Below are positions 2,443 through 7,669 of a DNA stretch of 64,000 nt, in pieces. A program made the position numbers and the translations under genes. Numbering within the stretch: the first letter of the stretch is position 1; every line of letters starts with the position of its first letter. The notes under the pieces are model-generated. The model worked only from the letters and a program-made list of their open reading frames with translations. It was not told the origin of the DNA and did no database searches. Source of the DNA: Bacteroidales bacterium (GTDB taxonomy: Bacteria > Bacteroidota > Bacteroidia > Bacteroidales > PUMT01); contig SLOE01000084.1 in NCBI GenBank assembly GCA_007132715.1, positions 1 through 64,000 of the forward strand, written 5' to 3'.

Positions 2443-4203
2443 ATGAATATTTTCAACAGGCTGGCAGGGTTATTAAGTTCCGGGTTGCAGGAAAAATACG
2501 ATGAACGTCTTGTAAGCAAGGTCGTATTTATCAACCTGCTCAGTCTTGCAGGCTTTATCCTTTTCCTCGTCTTCGGCATCATGGCGCTTCTGAGGGGTGA
2601 ATACTTTTTTGGTACAGCTTCCCTTGCATCATCAGCCCTGTTATTATCAAGCATACATTATGTAAGAAAAACCGGGAAATATAAAATAGCAGCCAAGTTT
2701 AACCTGACCCTGGTCATACTGGTACTTTTTACAATGTTTGCCTCAGATCAGACCGACGGCTCGGTGATCATATGGTTTTGTGCCTTCCCGATCCTGTCAG
2801 TTATTATTCTGGGTATCAGGAACGGAACTGCAGTGTCACTCGTCTTTCTGATTGTAAGTCTCCTTTTCTTCATCCTGCCCGAAACAATGGTTTACAGACC
2901 TGATTTACCTGCAATGTTCATCATAAGGTTTTTCGGTCTTTATACGGCCATGTATGTTGTCGCCATCATATTTGAATACTACAGGATGAGCTATCTCAAA
3001 GCCCTGGAACTGCAACTCCTTGAAGCCAGAAATGAGACCAGGCTGAAAGAATCATTTATCAGCAAACTTTCGCATCAGATACGTACACCATTGAGCAATA
3101 TTATGCTGGTAGGTCATATGGTGAATAAGGTAAACCTCACGCCCGAACAACGGGAAATGATGGAAACCATTATTGCATCGGCAAATAACCTAGTCAGCAC
3201 CATTGAGAACATTGCAGAGATTACCGAAGTTGATATAGAAAGTGAGAAAAGATCTGAAAAGACCCGCTTCAACCTTCTGTCAACTCTGGAAAGCTCAGTC
3301 AGGCTCTTTACAGTCCAGAAAGAACCGGTTGTGGATTTTAACCTTTCAGTTGATGACAAACTTAAATCTCGGGATCTGGAGGGAGATCCGGTCAGGCTGA
3401 AACAGGTGTTCCTTAACCTTATTGAGACGATTCTGAAGAACAAGAGACCGGGGAAAATCAATATTAATATCCTGGCCGACATCCATGGTCAGATATCCGA
3501 CATTACAGAGATCAGGTTTGAACTGCGTACAGACAAACCCATTAACCTGGTTCAGCCGGAAAGAACATCTACCAGTGGTGGATCGGGGTTTATAGGCCAG
3601 AATTACGGTAGTTTAAGCAACAACCTTGATCTGAATATAGCCCGGAAGATAATAATACAACTGGGAGGAAAGCTTCATGTCCTGCAAACAAAAGACAAAA
3701 ACCAGGTATTTCTCTTCACCCTCCCCTTCAGGACAGCAGCATCCCCTGTTCCATCAGCAAAAGCTGATGTAAAAACTGAAAGAGAGAAAATGGCTGATAA
3801 GGTTACAGCCGGGGAAAAGCTGAAGGATGCCAACGTACTCCTTGTGGAAGATAACACCATTAATCAGAAAATTGTAGTATTGAGCCTGAACAAGTATATT
3901 AAGAACATAGATGTTGCAAACAACGGCAAGGAGGCACTGGATAAGTTTGGCACATCTAAATATGATGTTATCCTTATGGATGTTCAGATGCCGGTTATTG
4001 ACGGATTTGTTGCAACAAGGAAGATACGGGAGATTGAAGCCACCACCAAATCCCACACCCCGATCATTGCTATAACCGCAAATGCCCTTCACGGCGACAG
4101 GGAAAAATGCCTGGCCGCGGGCATGGACGACTACATAAGCAAACCCTTCCAGGTAGAGGTTCTGGTAGATAAGATAAGAAACCTCCTTCCGGGTAAAAGC
4201 TGA
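2443..4203 (+). CDS. Membrane hybrid histidine kinase-like protein with degenerate ATP-binding motifs
   Basis: A 586-residue protein. Residues about 27-185 hold roughly six hydrophobic segments with no large extracytoplasmic sensor domain. A short coiled region leads into a HisKA-like helix with the phospho-acceptor H211 in SHQIRTP, where the usual acidic residue after His is Gln. The expected HATPase region (about 290-430) is unusual. The N-box reads NLIETILKN, without the canonical Asn, no G1 box with DxGxG is evident, and the G2 position reads NNLDLNIA instead of GLGLxI. A canonical receiver domain closes the protein (about 463-586): acidic pair in VEDN, phospho-acceptor in ILMDVQMP, later TA and KP motifs. 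So H and D are present but ATP binding is doubtful. It converges on the propeller/SpoIIE gene, the two stops being 11 bases apart. It may receive phosphate from a partner kinase rather than autophosphorylate; that is inference. Confidence 0.85.
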   Translation: MNIFNRLAGLLSSGLQEKYDERLVSKVVFINLLSLAGFILFLVFGIMALLRGEYFFGTASLASSALLLSSIHYVRKTGKYKIAAKFNLTLVILVLFTMFASDQTDGSVIIWFCAFPILSVIILGIRNGTAVSLVFLIVSLLFFILPETMVYRPDLPAMFIIRFFGLYTAMYVVAIIFEYYRMSYLKALELQLLEARNETRLKESFISKLSHQIRTPLSNIMLVGHMVNKVNLTPEQREMMETIIASANNLVSTIENIAEITEVDIESEKRSEKTRFNLLSTLESSVRLFTVQKEPVVDFNLSVDDKLKSRDLEGDPVRLKQVFLNLIETILKNKRPGKININILADIHGQISDITEIRFELRTDKPINLVQPERTSTSGGSGFIGQNYGSLSNNLDLNIARKIIIQLGGKLHVLQTKDKNQVFLFTLPFRTAASPVPSAKADVKTEREKMADKVTAGEKLKDANVLLVEDNTINQKIVVLSLNKYIKNIDVANNGKEALDKFGTSKYDVILMDVQMPVIDGFVATRKIREIEATTKSHTPIIAITANALHGDREKCLAAGMDDYISKPFQVEVLVDKIRNLLPGKS

Positions 4204-4215
4204 TTAGCTCAGCTT
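4197..4215. terminator. Possible bidirectional hairpin between convergent genes
   Basis: AAGCTGA and TCAGCTT form a perfect 7-bp stem with a 5-base loop, spanning the stop codons of both convergent genes. The T-tracts are poor, so it may be only a weak terminator or chance. Confidence 0.35.
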
Positions 4216-7200
4216 ATTCATGGTTTAGACCGGGCCTGATGCCGATAACCAGGATATCATCAACCTGTTCCTCGCTGCCCATCCACTGGATCATGCTCTC
4301 CTCAAGCATATCTTTTTGCTGCATGGTGGGAAGTTTGTGTATATTGAGCAACAGGTGCCGGAACCTCCTGAACTTGAATTTTTTGCCATCCTCCCCCCCG
4401 AACTGATCCGGATAACCATCAGAAAACAGGTATATCACATCATCCTCTTCCAGGTGAATAGTATGGTTTGTAAAGGACTCTCCGATCAGATCTTCCATAA
4501 TACCAACAGGAAAACGATTGCCTTTCACCTCGGTTATTGACATATCCCTTATCAGATACATAGGCGAGAAAGCCCCGGAAAACTCAAGTAATGATTTTCC
4601 GCGGTCAATCACAACAAATCCGACATCCATCCCGTCGCGGAATGAATAATCCTTTTCCCCATCCGAGTCAAAAATTTTGGAAAAATCGACATTAAGTTCA
4701 TTCAATATATCGGCCGGACTTTCAATGCCTTTAACATTGATGATGGTCCTGAGAAGTTCGTATCCTATTATTGACATAAAAGCACCGGGAACACCGTGAC
4801 CGGTGCAATCAACCACAGCAATAAATACTTTATCCTTTCTTTTGCTTACCCAGAAAAAATCACCGCTGACAATATCCTTGGGACTGTAGAAGATAAATGA
4901 ATCGTGAAAATGCCTTTGCAACTGGCGGGATTTCGGCATCATAGCCATCTGAATTCTGCGTGCATAGTTTATGCTGTCGGTAATATTCCTGTTCTTTAAC
5001 GACAACTCCTCCTTCTGGCGTGCCACCTCCTGTGATGCCTGCTCTTTTTCCCTCAGTACCTGGTTTGCCGTTCGAAGCTGAATGGTGCTGAACATTACAA
5101 TTATGTATATAAATCCCAGTACTGAAATAACATAAAAGAAATATGCATAACCCGACATCCACCAGGGTGTTACTACCACGATCCTGACCGATGCACCTTC
5201 TTCGTTCCATATTCCGTCATTATTAGATCCCCTTACCCGGAACAGGTATGTACCCGGAGGCACCCTGTTAAATCCTGCGACCCTCCTGGCACCCGAGTAT
5301 ATCCAGGTATCTTCCAATCCATCAATTGTGTATGAGTACCTGTTCCTGTGGGGCCGGGTAAAATCGAGGGCTGCAAACTCAATACTGAATGAATTCTCAT
5401 AAGGCTGCAGGATGATCTCTTCAGTACCTGTGACCGGTATAGATCTTTCATATCCGGGTGCCTGTACCTCAAAAGATGTTATTACGACAGGCGGTATATT
5501 ATCATTGTACAGGATTGAATCAGAATAAAAGCTGTTAAACCCTGATACCCCACCAAAAAAAATTTCACCTTCATTACTCTTATAGACTGCTCCCAGATTA
5601 AACTCATAATCCTGCAAGCCATCATCCACATTAAAGTTTATCACTTCAAAATTATCAGGATCAAACCTTGCAATCCCGTTGTTGGTGCTCAGCCAGAGCC
5701 TGCCGTTATCGTCTTCGGCAATAGCATAAATCAGGTTGTCGGGCAGTCCCTCGATTTCAGAAAATACCATGAAAGATCCTGTGCGGGGAAAGAACCTGTT
5801 GAGTCCCGCAACAGTCCCTATCCACAGGTTACCGCCGGCATCTTCATGAATTGCCGTTACCTCATTATTGCTCAGGCTGAACCGTCCCATCTCAGGGTTC
5901 TTGAGGTAGCTGAGAAAAATTCCGGTCTCCCTGTCATAACGGTTCAGTCCCCTTGCAGTTGCCAGCCATATATACCCGTTACTGCATTCTTTGATGTCGT
6001 GGACCTGGTTGGATGATATTGAGTTATCATCGTCGGGGTCATGAAGGTATTCAAGCATTTTACCATTGTCAAAAGCATAAAGTCCGTTCCGGGTGGCAAC
6101 CCACATAACCTGCCGGGAGTCCTCCAGTACCGAATATACCCGGTTGGAACTGAACACAGAGCAGTCACCCGGGTCGTCTGACGGGCAATAGGGAGCAAAC
6201 CCAATGTTCTCCCCAAGGTATATATCCAGTCCGTCCCTTGTTCCCAATATTAAGTTCCCGTCACTGCGTTGAAATATGACATGAACGAAATCATTGCTTA
6301 TCCTTCTTGTGGTAACGGCCGACAATGAAGAGTAGTGCACGGCGTCGATTGCATTTCTTTTTATCCTGAAGAGCCCTCCGCCCCATGTACCGACCCAGAG
6401 TTCATCATCACCTGCCAGACTGATTGATGCGATGATCCTGGCAGCAGGAGCAGCTTCAGGCATATAGTCATGTATCCTGTAAGATCTGAACTTGTTATTT
6501 CCATCTGCCATGAACAAACCGCCAAGTGTGCCAACCCACAAATTACCCGAATTATCCTCAGTAACTGAGGTCACCTCCATGTTCATAAATGGCGTAACAC
6601 CACGGCCGGAGGTAAAAGTCCCGAACACACCTGAAACTGGCGAAAATGAAAAAAGGCCTCCGTTAGTACCTGTCCACACGGTACCATTTCTGTCTTCATA
6701 AATATGGTTAATATGATTTATTTCGGTACCGGCGGTTATATAACTCCCGGGTAAGAACCTGACGAATTGTTGTTTACCCGGATAGAAAATATTCAGCCCG
6801 TTGTCCGTACCTATAAGCATATGTCCGCCGGAAGTTTCAAAGACTGCTCGTACGTTGTTGCTGCTTATTGATCCAGGATCATCCGTATCATGCCGGTATA
6901 CCTGAAACTGTCCTCCAATCCTGTCAAATAACAGCAACCCGTTATTAGATCCAATCCATAAGCGCCCCCTGGAATCCTCATAAATTGGTTCGCCCCCGTT
7001 CTCTTCCGTCCATACTGGTGAAAGATCATAAGACCCTGCATTTTCAAACACACCCGATTGCTGATCAAATCTATCAAGGCCAAGTGGCGTTTTAATCCAT
7101 ATTGTACCACCGCTGTCCCGGAAGAGCCCTGTTACTTTATTGTGACTTAATGAATACCTGTTACCCGGTTCATGCCTGTACACAATAAAGGTTTCACTTT

Positions 7201-7669
7201 TCCGGTCAAACATGTTCAGACCGTCATCAGTGGCCACCCATAAATTACCCCGGTCATCTTCAATAACAGAGTTGATGGTGCTGTTTGACAACGAGCCCCT
7301 GCCAGACGGCTGATGCTTGAAAGCCCTGAAACCGTACCCATCAAACTGGTTGAGCCCGTATTGGGTCCCGACCCAGATGAACCCGTAGGAATCAAGGAAT
7401 ATGGAGTTCACCGATATTTGGGATAACCCCTCCTCCAGGCTGTATCCGACAATCCTGATATCCCTGCCGGGAGTTGCAAAACTACGGGTACAGACAAAAA
7501 CCAGTAACATCATTGCCGCCAAAAACAGGGTGACTTTACCTCCAAATAATACAGGCAGGCAGGCATCTCTGTTATAATGGGAAAACCGGCAATTATTCAC
7601 TGTCAGCAAGACTTTTCTGTTATATCCCGCTAATTTACTATTTATACCGCAATCAGTGCTAAATAGCAC
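4214..7669 (-). CDS. Two-component-type propeller sensor with SpoIIE/PP2C phosphatase output
   Basis: An 1151-residue sensor. A hydrophobic signal segment (about 46-65) precedes about 14 propeller blades with the recurring pattern D-G-x-[LI]-W-[VI]-G-T-x-x-G-L (for example DRGNLWVATDDGL, GGNLWIGTVAGL), which would make two seven-bladed propellers. A Y_Y_Y-type domain (about 780-850), one transmembrane helix (about 860-880) and a coiled coil follow. The last about 240 residues are a SpoIIE/PP2C phosphatase with metal-ligand aspartates in SGDFFW, DCTGHG, FSDGYPDQ and QVDDIL. The outer half resembles the hybrid two-component systems that sense glycans in Bacteroides, but the output is dephosphorylation, classically of anti-sigma antagonists; no STAS or RsbW-like gene is in the window. 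The true start is uncertain: the ORF start lies next to the gltA terminator T-tract, and ATG codons at 7513 and 7510 are alternatives, although they remove the only Lys before the signal helix. Confidence 0.88.
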   Translation of the reverse strand: MLFSTDCGINSKLAGYNRKVLLTVNNCRFSHYNRDACLPVLFGGKVTLFLAAMMLLVFVCTRSFATPGRDIRIVGYSLEEGLSQISVNSIFLDSYGFIWVGTQYGLNQFDGYGFRAFKHQPSGRGSLSNSTINSVIEDDRGNLWVATDDGLNMFDRKSETFIVYRHEPGNRYSLSHNKVTGLFRDSGGTIWIKTPLGLDRFDQQSGVFENAGSYDLSPVWTEENGGEPIYEDSRGRLWIGSNNGLLLFDRIGGQFQVYRHDTDDPGSISSNNVRAVFETSGGHMLIGTDNGLNIFYPGKQQFVRFLPGSYITAGTEINHINHIYEDRNGTVWTGTNGGLFSFSPVSGVFGTFTSGRGVTPFMNMEVTSVTEDNSGNLWVGTLGGLFMADGNNKFRSYRIHDYMPEAAPAARIIASISLAGDDELWVGTWGGGLFRIKRNAIDAVHYSSLSAVTTRRISNDFVHVIFQRSDGNLILGTRDGLDIYLGENIGFAPYCPSDDPGDCSVFSSNRVYSVLEDSRQVMWVATRNGLYAFDNGKMLEYLHDPDDDNSISSNQVHDIKECSNGYIWLATARGLNRYDRETGIFLSYLKNPEMGRFSLSNNEVTAIHEDAGGNLWIGTVAGLNRFFPRTGSFMVFSEIEGLPDNLIYAIAEDDNGRLWLSTNNGIARFDPDNFEVINFNVDDGLQDYEFNLGAVYKSNEGEIFFGGVSGFNSFYSDSILYNDNIPPVVITSFEVQAPGYERSIPVTGTEEIILQPYENSFSIEFAALDFTRPHRNRYSYTIDGLEDTWIYSGARRVAGFNRVPPGTYLFRVRGSNNDGIWNEEGASVRIVVVTPWWMSGYAYFFYVISVLGFIYIIVMFSTIQLRTANQVLREKEQASQEVARQKEELSLKNRNITDSINYARRIQMAMMPKSRQLQRHFHDSFIFYSPKDIVSGDFFWVSKRKDKVFIAVVDCTGHGVPGAFMSIIGYELLRTIINVKGIESPADILNELNVDFSKIFDSDGEKDYSFRDGMDVGFVVIDRGKSLLEFSGAFSPMYLIRDMSITEVKGNRFPVGIMEDLIGESFTNHTIHLEEDDVIYLFSDGYPDQFGGEDGKKFKFRRFRHLLLNIHKLPTMQQKDMLEESMIQWMGSEEQVDDILVIGIRPGLNHE

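Follow-up and report, generated by a model that had tools for sequence, protein, structure and literature searches.

In active hybrid histidine kinases, ATP is bound through the G1 (DxGxG) and G2 (GxGLG) boxes of the catalytic domain, and kinase-dead hybrid sensors are known from a few cases (RetS, DivL). RetS of Pseudomonas aeruginosa has no G-boxes and is reported to be unable to autophosphorylate; it takes phosphoryl groups from GacS on a receiver, dephosphorylates its receiver and blocks GacS autophosphorylation (PMC5992135). In the HptB-HsbR-HsbA network of the same species, a stand-alone histidine phosphotransfer (HPt) protein fed by hybrid kinases controls both a PP2C regulator and a STAS protein (PMC6482189). 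Here, we describe a gene of a Bacteroidales bacterium, located in a stretch of 64,000 nucleotides of contig SLOE01000084.1 (assembly GCA_007132715.1; the whole stretch is called the window), which runs from ATG to TGA at positions 2443..4203 of the forward strand and encodes a probably kinase-dead hybrid histidine kinase of 586 amino acids with orthologues in its family and order. On balance, we read this protein as an ATP-independent membrane receptor derived from a hybrid kinase, which would accept or remove phosphoryl groups in an HPt relay in a RetS-like manner. No paper on such a Bacteroidales family was found in a literature search, and the annotation "hybrid sensor histidine kinase" would be misleading with regard to its activity.

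The best curated matches of the protein are BarA, ArcB and TorS, and its domains follow one another in the same order (HisKA, HATPase, receiver) as in the canonical hybrids ShkA, BarA and ArcB, from which it differs by the loss of the kinase motifs. A MASE6-like membrane sensor domain with long predicted helices (residues 31-182, 2533..2988; Pfam PF20966, E 9e-10) is followed by a HisKA or dimerization and histidine phosphotransfer (DHp) domain (residues 202-259, 3046..3219; PF00512, E 1.8e-10). Its H-box, SHQIRTPL (residues 210-217, 3070..3093), keeps His211 and Thr215 and has Gln212 in place of the usual Glu or Asp. The catalytic or ATP-binding domain (residues 270-431, 3250..3735) appears degenerate, with the predicted HATPase fold kept and G1 and G2 missing: a motif search found neither D-x-G-x-G nor G-x-G-L-G anywhere in this region, NNLDLNIA stands at residues 393-400 where GLGLxI is expected, and the site of the missing G1, F and G2 boxes and of the ATP lid (residues 364-393, 3532..3621) is predicted to be disordered and evolves fast. 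The receiver (residues 465-579, 3835..4179; PF00072, E 2e-26) is canonical, with LLVEDN at residue 466, LMDVQMP at residue 511, the phospho-acceptor Asp513 (codon 3979-3981) and E469, D470, T545 and K567 all present.

A preliminary description made from the letters of this DNA had named the open reading frame (ORF), the altered H-box and N-box, NNLDLNIA, the missing DxGxG and the canonical receiver, all of which were located again. Its statement that the N-box is without its Asn applies to one of two positions, since in the remnant NLIETILK (3415..3438; NLIETILKN at residues 325-333) the catalytic, Mg-binding Asn is replaced by Thr329, but the structural first Asn (N325) is still there. When the protein was compared with Pfam profiles, HisKA, MASE6 and Response_reg passed the curated cut-offs and HATPase_c reached 24.6 bits, under its cut-off of 26.4, in line with that description. 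Its central proposal, an ATP-incompetent pseudokinase, is strongly supported at the sequence level by the family-wide loss of G1 and G2, the replacement of the acidic H-box residue and the closeness of the predicted catalytic domain to RetS, from which we infer ATP incompetence of the protein.

The data are those of metagenome-assembled genomes (MAGs), the genome of the window being 85% complete. Orthologues with 41-91% identity were detected in all 16 genomes of the window's GTDB family, which rules out chance or a sequencing artefact, and in all 16 the ORF is free of internal stops (three end at contig ends). In a sample of the order, approximately 58 of 295 genomes, a count that includes some partial matches and one receiver fragment, have a homologue that covers the greater part of it, with approximately 28-45% identity outside the family. 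The named relatives are Bacteroidales MAGs, many of one sediment series, with no named cultured member found, and no match at E 1e-60 was found outside the order in a class sample of 395 genomes.

Motifs were tallied over 69 aligned members, in 68 of which the H-box is readable (one row is truncated). No member has G1 or G2, and the receiver residues corresponding to E469, D470, D513 and K567 are kept in every one. The residue after the H-box His is Gln in 57 of the 68 and acidic in three (two Asp, one Glu), and 62 retain the phosphatase Thr at His+4 and 56 the His itself. Among 36 other hybrid kinases retrieved by the same search as a control, all have Glu or Asp after the His and 34 have both G1 and G2; judged from these alignments, the motif loss is far beyond chance. 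Across 64 members, Pfam detects the receiver in all, HisKA in 62 and HATPase_c in 29. In a tree built with a quick method and a small outgroup, a branch with a support of 100 separates 68 members from six canonical hybrids, and the loss of G1 and G2 looks ancestral in the family. The N-box Asn is still found in 20 of the 69 members, and its loss was therefore later and repeated. Two members of one family (L097 and L102, family f25) lack G1 and G2 and nevertheless keep an acidic residue after the His (SHDIRTPL).

A degenerate catalytic domain might also be expected of a decaying gene whose function is gone, a possibility to which we give almost no credence and which is ruled out by conservation and selection: the ORF is intact in 16 of 16 family genomes, the gene is retained across the order, and the ratio of nonsynonymous to synonymous substitution rates (dN/dS) is far below 1. 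Relative to the nearest relative, dN/dS is 0.02 in the DHp domain, 0.13 in the catalytic domain and 0.07 in the receiver, and approximately 1.2 only in the former ATP-lid region, the values having been obtained by a simple counting method and the lid region being a short stretch. By these estimates, the protein is under purifying selection. Averaged over all pairs of family members, sequence identity is 65% in the receiver, 39% in the DHp domain, 25% in the catalytic domain and 18% in the membrane domain; the receiver is therefore the part most tightly held by selection. Because the same crippled form has been kept in dozens of related families, the protein looks like a switch or drain in a phosphate relay and not like a decaying gene.

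The predicted structure agrees with a catalytic domain that retains its architecture. The model of the full protein has a mean predicted local distance difference test (pLDDT) score of 81, with values below 50 at residues 373-392, and that of the catalytic domain alone has a pLDDT of 85 and a predicted template modelling score of 0.81, with pLDDT below 50 at model positions 103-112 (approximately residues 372-381 of the protein). In both, the alpha/beta sandwich typical of HATPase proteins is retained, and the place of the ATP lid is taken by a disordered stretch. In terms of the preliminary description, which had asked whether an ATP lid and a Bergerat fold exist, a Bergerat-type sandwich is still predicted and the lid region is disordered; according to the models, the HATPase fold exists and the nucleotide-binding motifs do not. 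The best PDB matches of the catalytic domain are RetS chains (6dk7 at the top, E 2.7e-11), and those of the full protein are ShkA (the top full-length match), GacS and RetS, with DivL (4q20) among the top 50. The sandwich, together with the N-box Asn of the 20 members mentioned above, could be taken to indicate a cryptic active kinase that binds ATP in an unusual pocket with unrecognisable motifs. This is highly improbable, considering that no member has G1 or G2, that the lid is disordered, that the acidic residue after the His is lost and that the closest fold is that of the inactive RetS.

With RetS, the protein shares the plan of a membrane hybrid sensor in which the HATPase fold lacks the G-boxes and the H-box His, the phosphatase Thr and a receiver are kept; of the traits of the RetS-type class, a fold without G-boxes and the residues T215 and D513 are found in it. 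Unlike RetS, which has HExxT and two receivers, acts via the second and partners GacS, it has HQxxT, a MASE6-like sensor and a single receiver, belongs to Bacteroidales and is not a RetS orthologue. No GacS orthologue was identified for the Bacteroidales pseudokinase. In HisKA proteins, the acidic residue after the His is needed for kinase activity only and the Thr or Asn at His+4 for phosphatase activity only, and NtrB E140Q is reported to have stayed phosphatase-competent (PMC3510030). An H-box of the form HQxxT therefore reads as kinase-dead and phosphatase-capable.

Candidate relay partners come from the single HPt domain detectable in the window genome, that of a stand-alone protein of 116 amino acids (G000:C102:33069-33416; L205/L174). 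The orthologous genes are paired, in a two-gene unit, with a gene for a STAS anti-sigma-factor antagonist. This STAS gene lies directly downstream of the HPt gene in 14 of the 15 HPt-bearing family genomes, the exception being the window genome. Among the genomes sampled from the order, 32 of 58 with the pseudokinase have the stand-alone HPt-STAS pair vs 4 of 237 others (Fisher test, 1e-22), and by family it is present in 14 of 27 with the pseudokinase vs 2 of 93 (3e-9), the pairs having been counted by hand from gene coordinates and the tests ignoring phylogeny. This co-occurrence of the pseudokinase with a stand-alone HPt and STAS pair is new here. It provides, along with the single genomic HPt, indirect support for the earlier suggestion of a phosphorelay hub fed by another kinase, which is plausible and unproven.

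Some genomes without the pseudokinase instead have a canonical hybrid with a fused HPt, followed by the STAS gene; a fused-HPt hybrid kinase directly in front of the STAS gene is seen in G227, G204, G103, G146 and G033. This arrangement supports a general link from HPt to STAS and suggests that the linkage of the two is more widespread in Bacteroidales. Two other candidate components were rejected: an RsbW-like kinase, a separate HATPase_c_2 protein, is not linked and has unrelated genes as neighbours, and a second STAS protein encoded in the window genome is a general paralogue instead of an HPt partner.

According to the RetS-like reading, the protein would no longer make its own phosphohistidine. 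Another kinase or the stand-alone HPt would supply its receiver with phosphoryl groups, and the DHp domain (HQxxT) would drain or return them as a signal-controlled phosphatase or phosphotransferase, thus setting the phosphorylation level of the HPt whose operon partner is the STAS anti-sigma-factor antagonist. The weakest step of this reading is that the STAS branch may also be a target of the SpoIIE phosphatase encoded next to the pseudokinase. Since the window genome's remaining hybrid kinases are of the canonical type, and the window clade keeps both the His and the receiver, a heterodimer could also be envisaged, with a canonical hybrid as the second subunit whose catalytic domain phosphorylates the dead one in trans; the phosphoryl group would then move from His to Asp to HPt as usual. 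No partner was identified, and we regard this as unlikely.

Several observations weigh against the RetS-like reading. The pairing of the window receiver with the stand-alone HPt is conjectural, and in the window genome itself the STAS gene is deleted but for approximately its first 8 codons, between the HPt gene and clpB. Approximately 26 genomes have the pseudokinase without an HPt-STAS pair, and common ancestry as well as genome size are confounders of the co-occurrence. A tracking of His retention with HPt-STAS is not claimed, as the association (Fisher test, 3e-5) comprises only two independent supported contrasts. Finally, the H-box His is lost in 12 of the 68 members, which are distant ones (8 Tyr, 2 Asn, 1 Arg, 1 Phe), and phosphotransfer by the DHp domain is therefore not universal in the family; in these members, either the receiver alone suffices or the proteins are DivL-like sensors.

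Extended to the whole family, the latter option would make the protein a DivL-like phospho-sensor, the core of which binds a phosphorylated partner and allosterically alters another kinase, with no phosphotransfer via the DHp His. DivL of Caulobacter is likewise a pseudo-histidine kinase, the replacements of the His in our family are mostly Tyr, as in DivL, with the receiver kept, and DivL is among the fold matches. DivL is not known to have a C-terminal receiver, unlike the window protein, which moreover keeps His211; the whole window clade keeps the His and the Thr, and its DHp domain is almost invariant. In DivL, the precedent for such sensing, the position of the His is occupied by Tyr in nearly the whole family (PMC4211667). 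A DivL-like role is thus rather doubtful for the protein of the window.

The pseudokinase gene converges, at a distance of 10 bp, with a gene on the reverse strand (4214..7669) for a protein of 1151 amino acids composed, according to Pfam, of a Reg_prop propeller, Y_Y_Y and SpoIIE (PP2C). The preliminary description had noted the convergence and proposed one signalling route for the two genes. The convergence is real, and by our own count a SpoIIE gene lies directly next to it in 26 of the 40 loci with the anchor gene, the sister genus included. The adjacency is weak functional evidence, because the genes are convergent, the block runs on into enolase, L17, rpoA and S4 (housekeeping synteny), and the propeller-SpoIIE protein also occurs where the pseudokinase does not (46 of 237 such genomes, against 47 of 58 that have the pseudokinase); the adjacency is not accepted as proof of a shared pathway, and the single route stays hypothetical. 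In the sister genus g2 (L137, L156, L157), the propeller half is lost and the SpoIIE half alone (approximately 335 amino acids) lies at the same place.

The combination recalls, by analogy, the RetS and HptB-HsbR-HsbA network; as systems, the two are not homologous. What they share is a logic that combines hybrid sensors, a stand-alone HPt, a PP2C phosphatase and a STAS antagonist, with HPt and STAS here forming one gene pair and the SpoIIE gene adjoining the sensor gene; unlike in that network, the SpoIIE protein has a propeller and no receiver, and the connection is by co-occurrence only. No HsbR-like receiver-PP2C-kinase protein was found next to the genes, no search aimed at HsbR having been made. 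It is possible, and put forward tentatively, that the family is an ancient, independently evolved Bacteroidales counterpart of Pseudomonas RetS/HptB/HsbA, in which receiver-HPt exchange, STAS and SpoIIE would join a phosphorelay with Ser/Thr phosphorylation. An order-wide family with an apparently ancestral and fixed kinase loss offers many natural replicates on the function of kinase-dead hybrid sensors, and it names testable partners, namely the stand-alone HPt, the STAS protein and the SpoIIE phosphatase.

With regard to the remaining neighbourhood, two secreted families that are absent in the window genus and have no Pfam match (approximately 284 and 236 amino acids) are encoded upstream of the pseudokinase on the opposite strand, the first in 24 and the second in 16 of the 40 loci (L138-L173).
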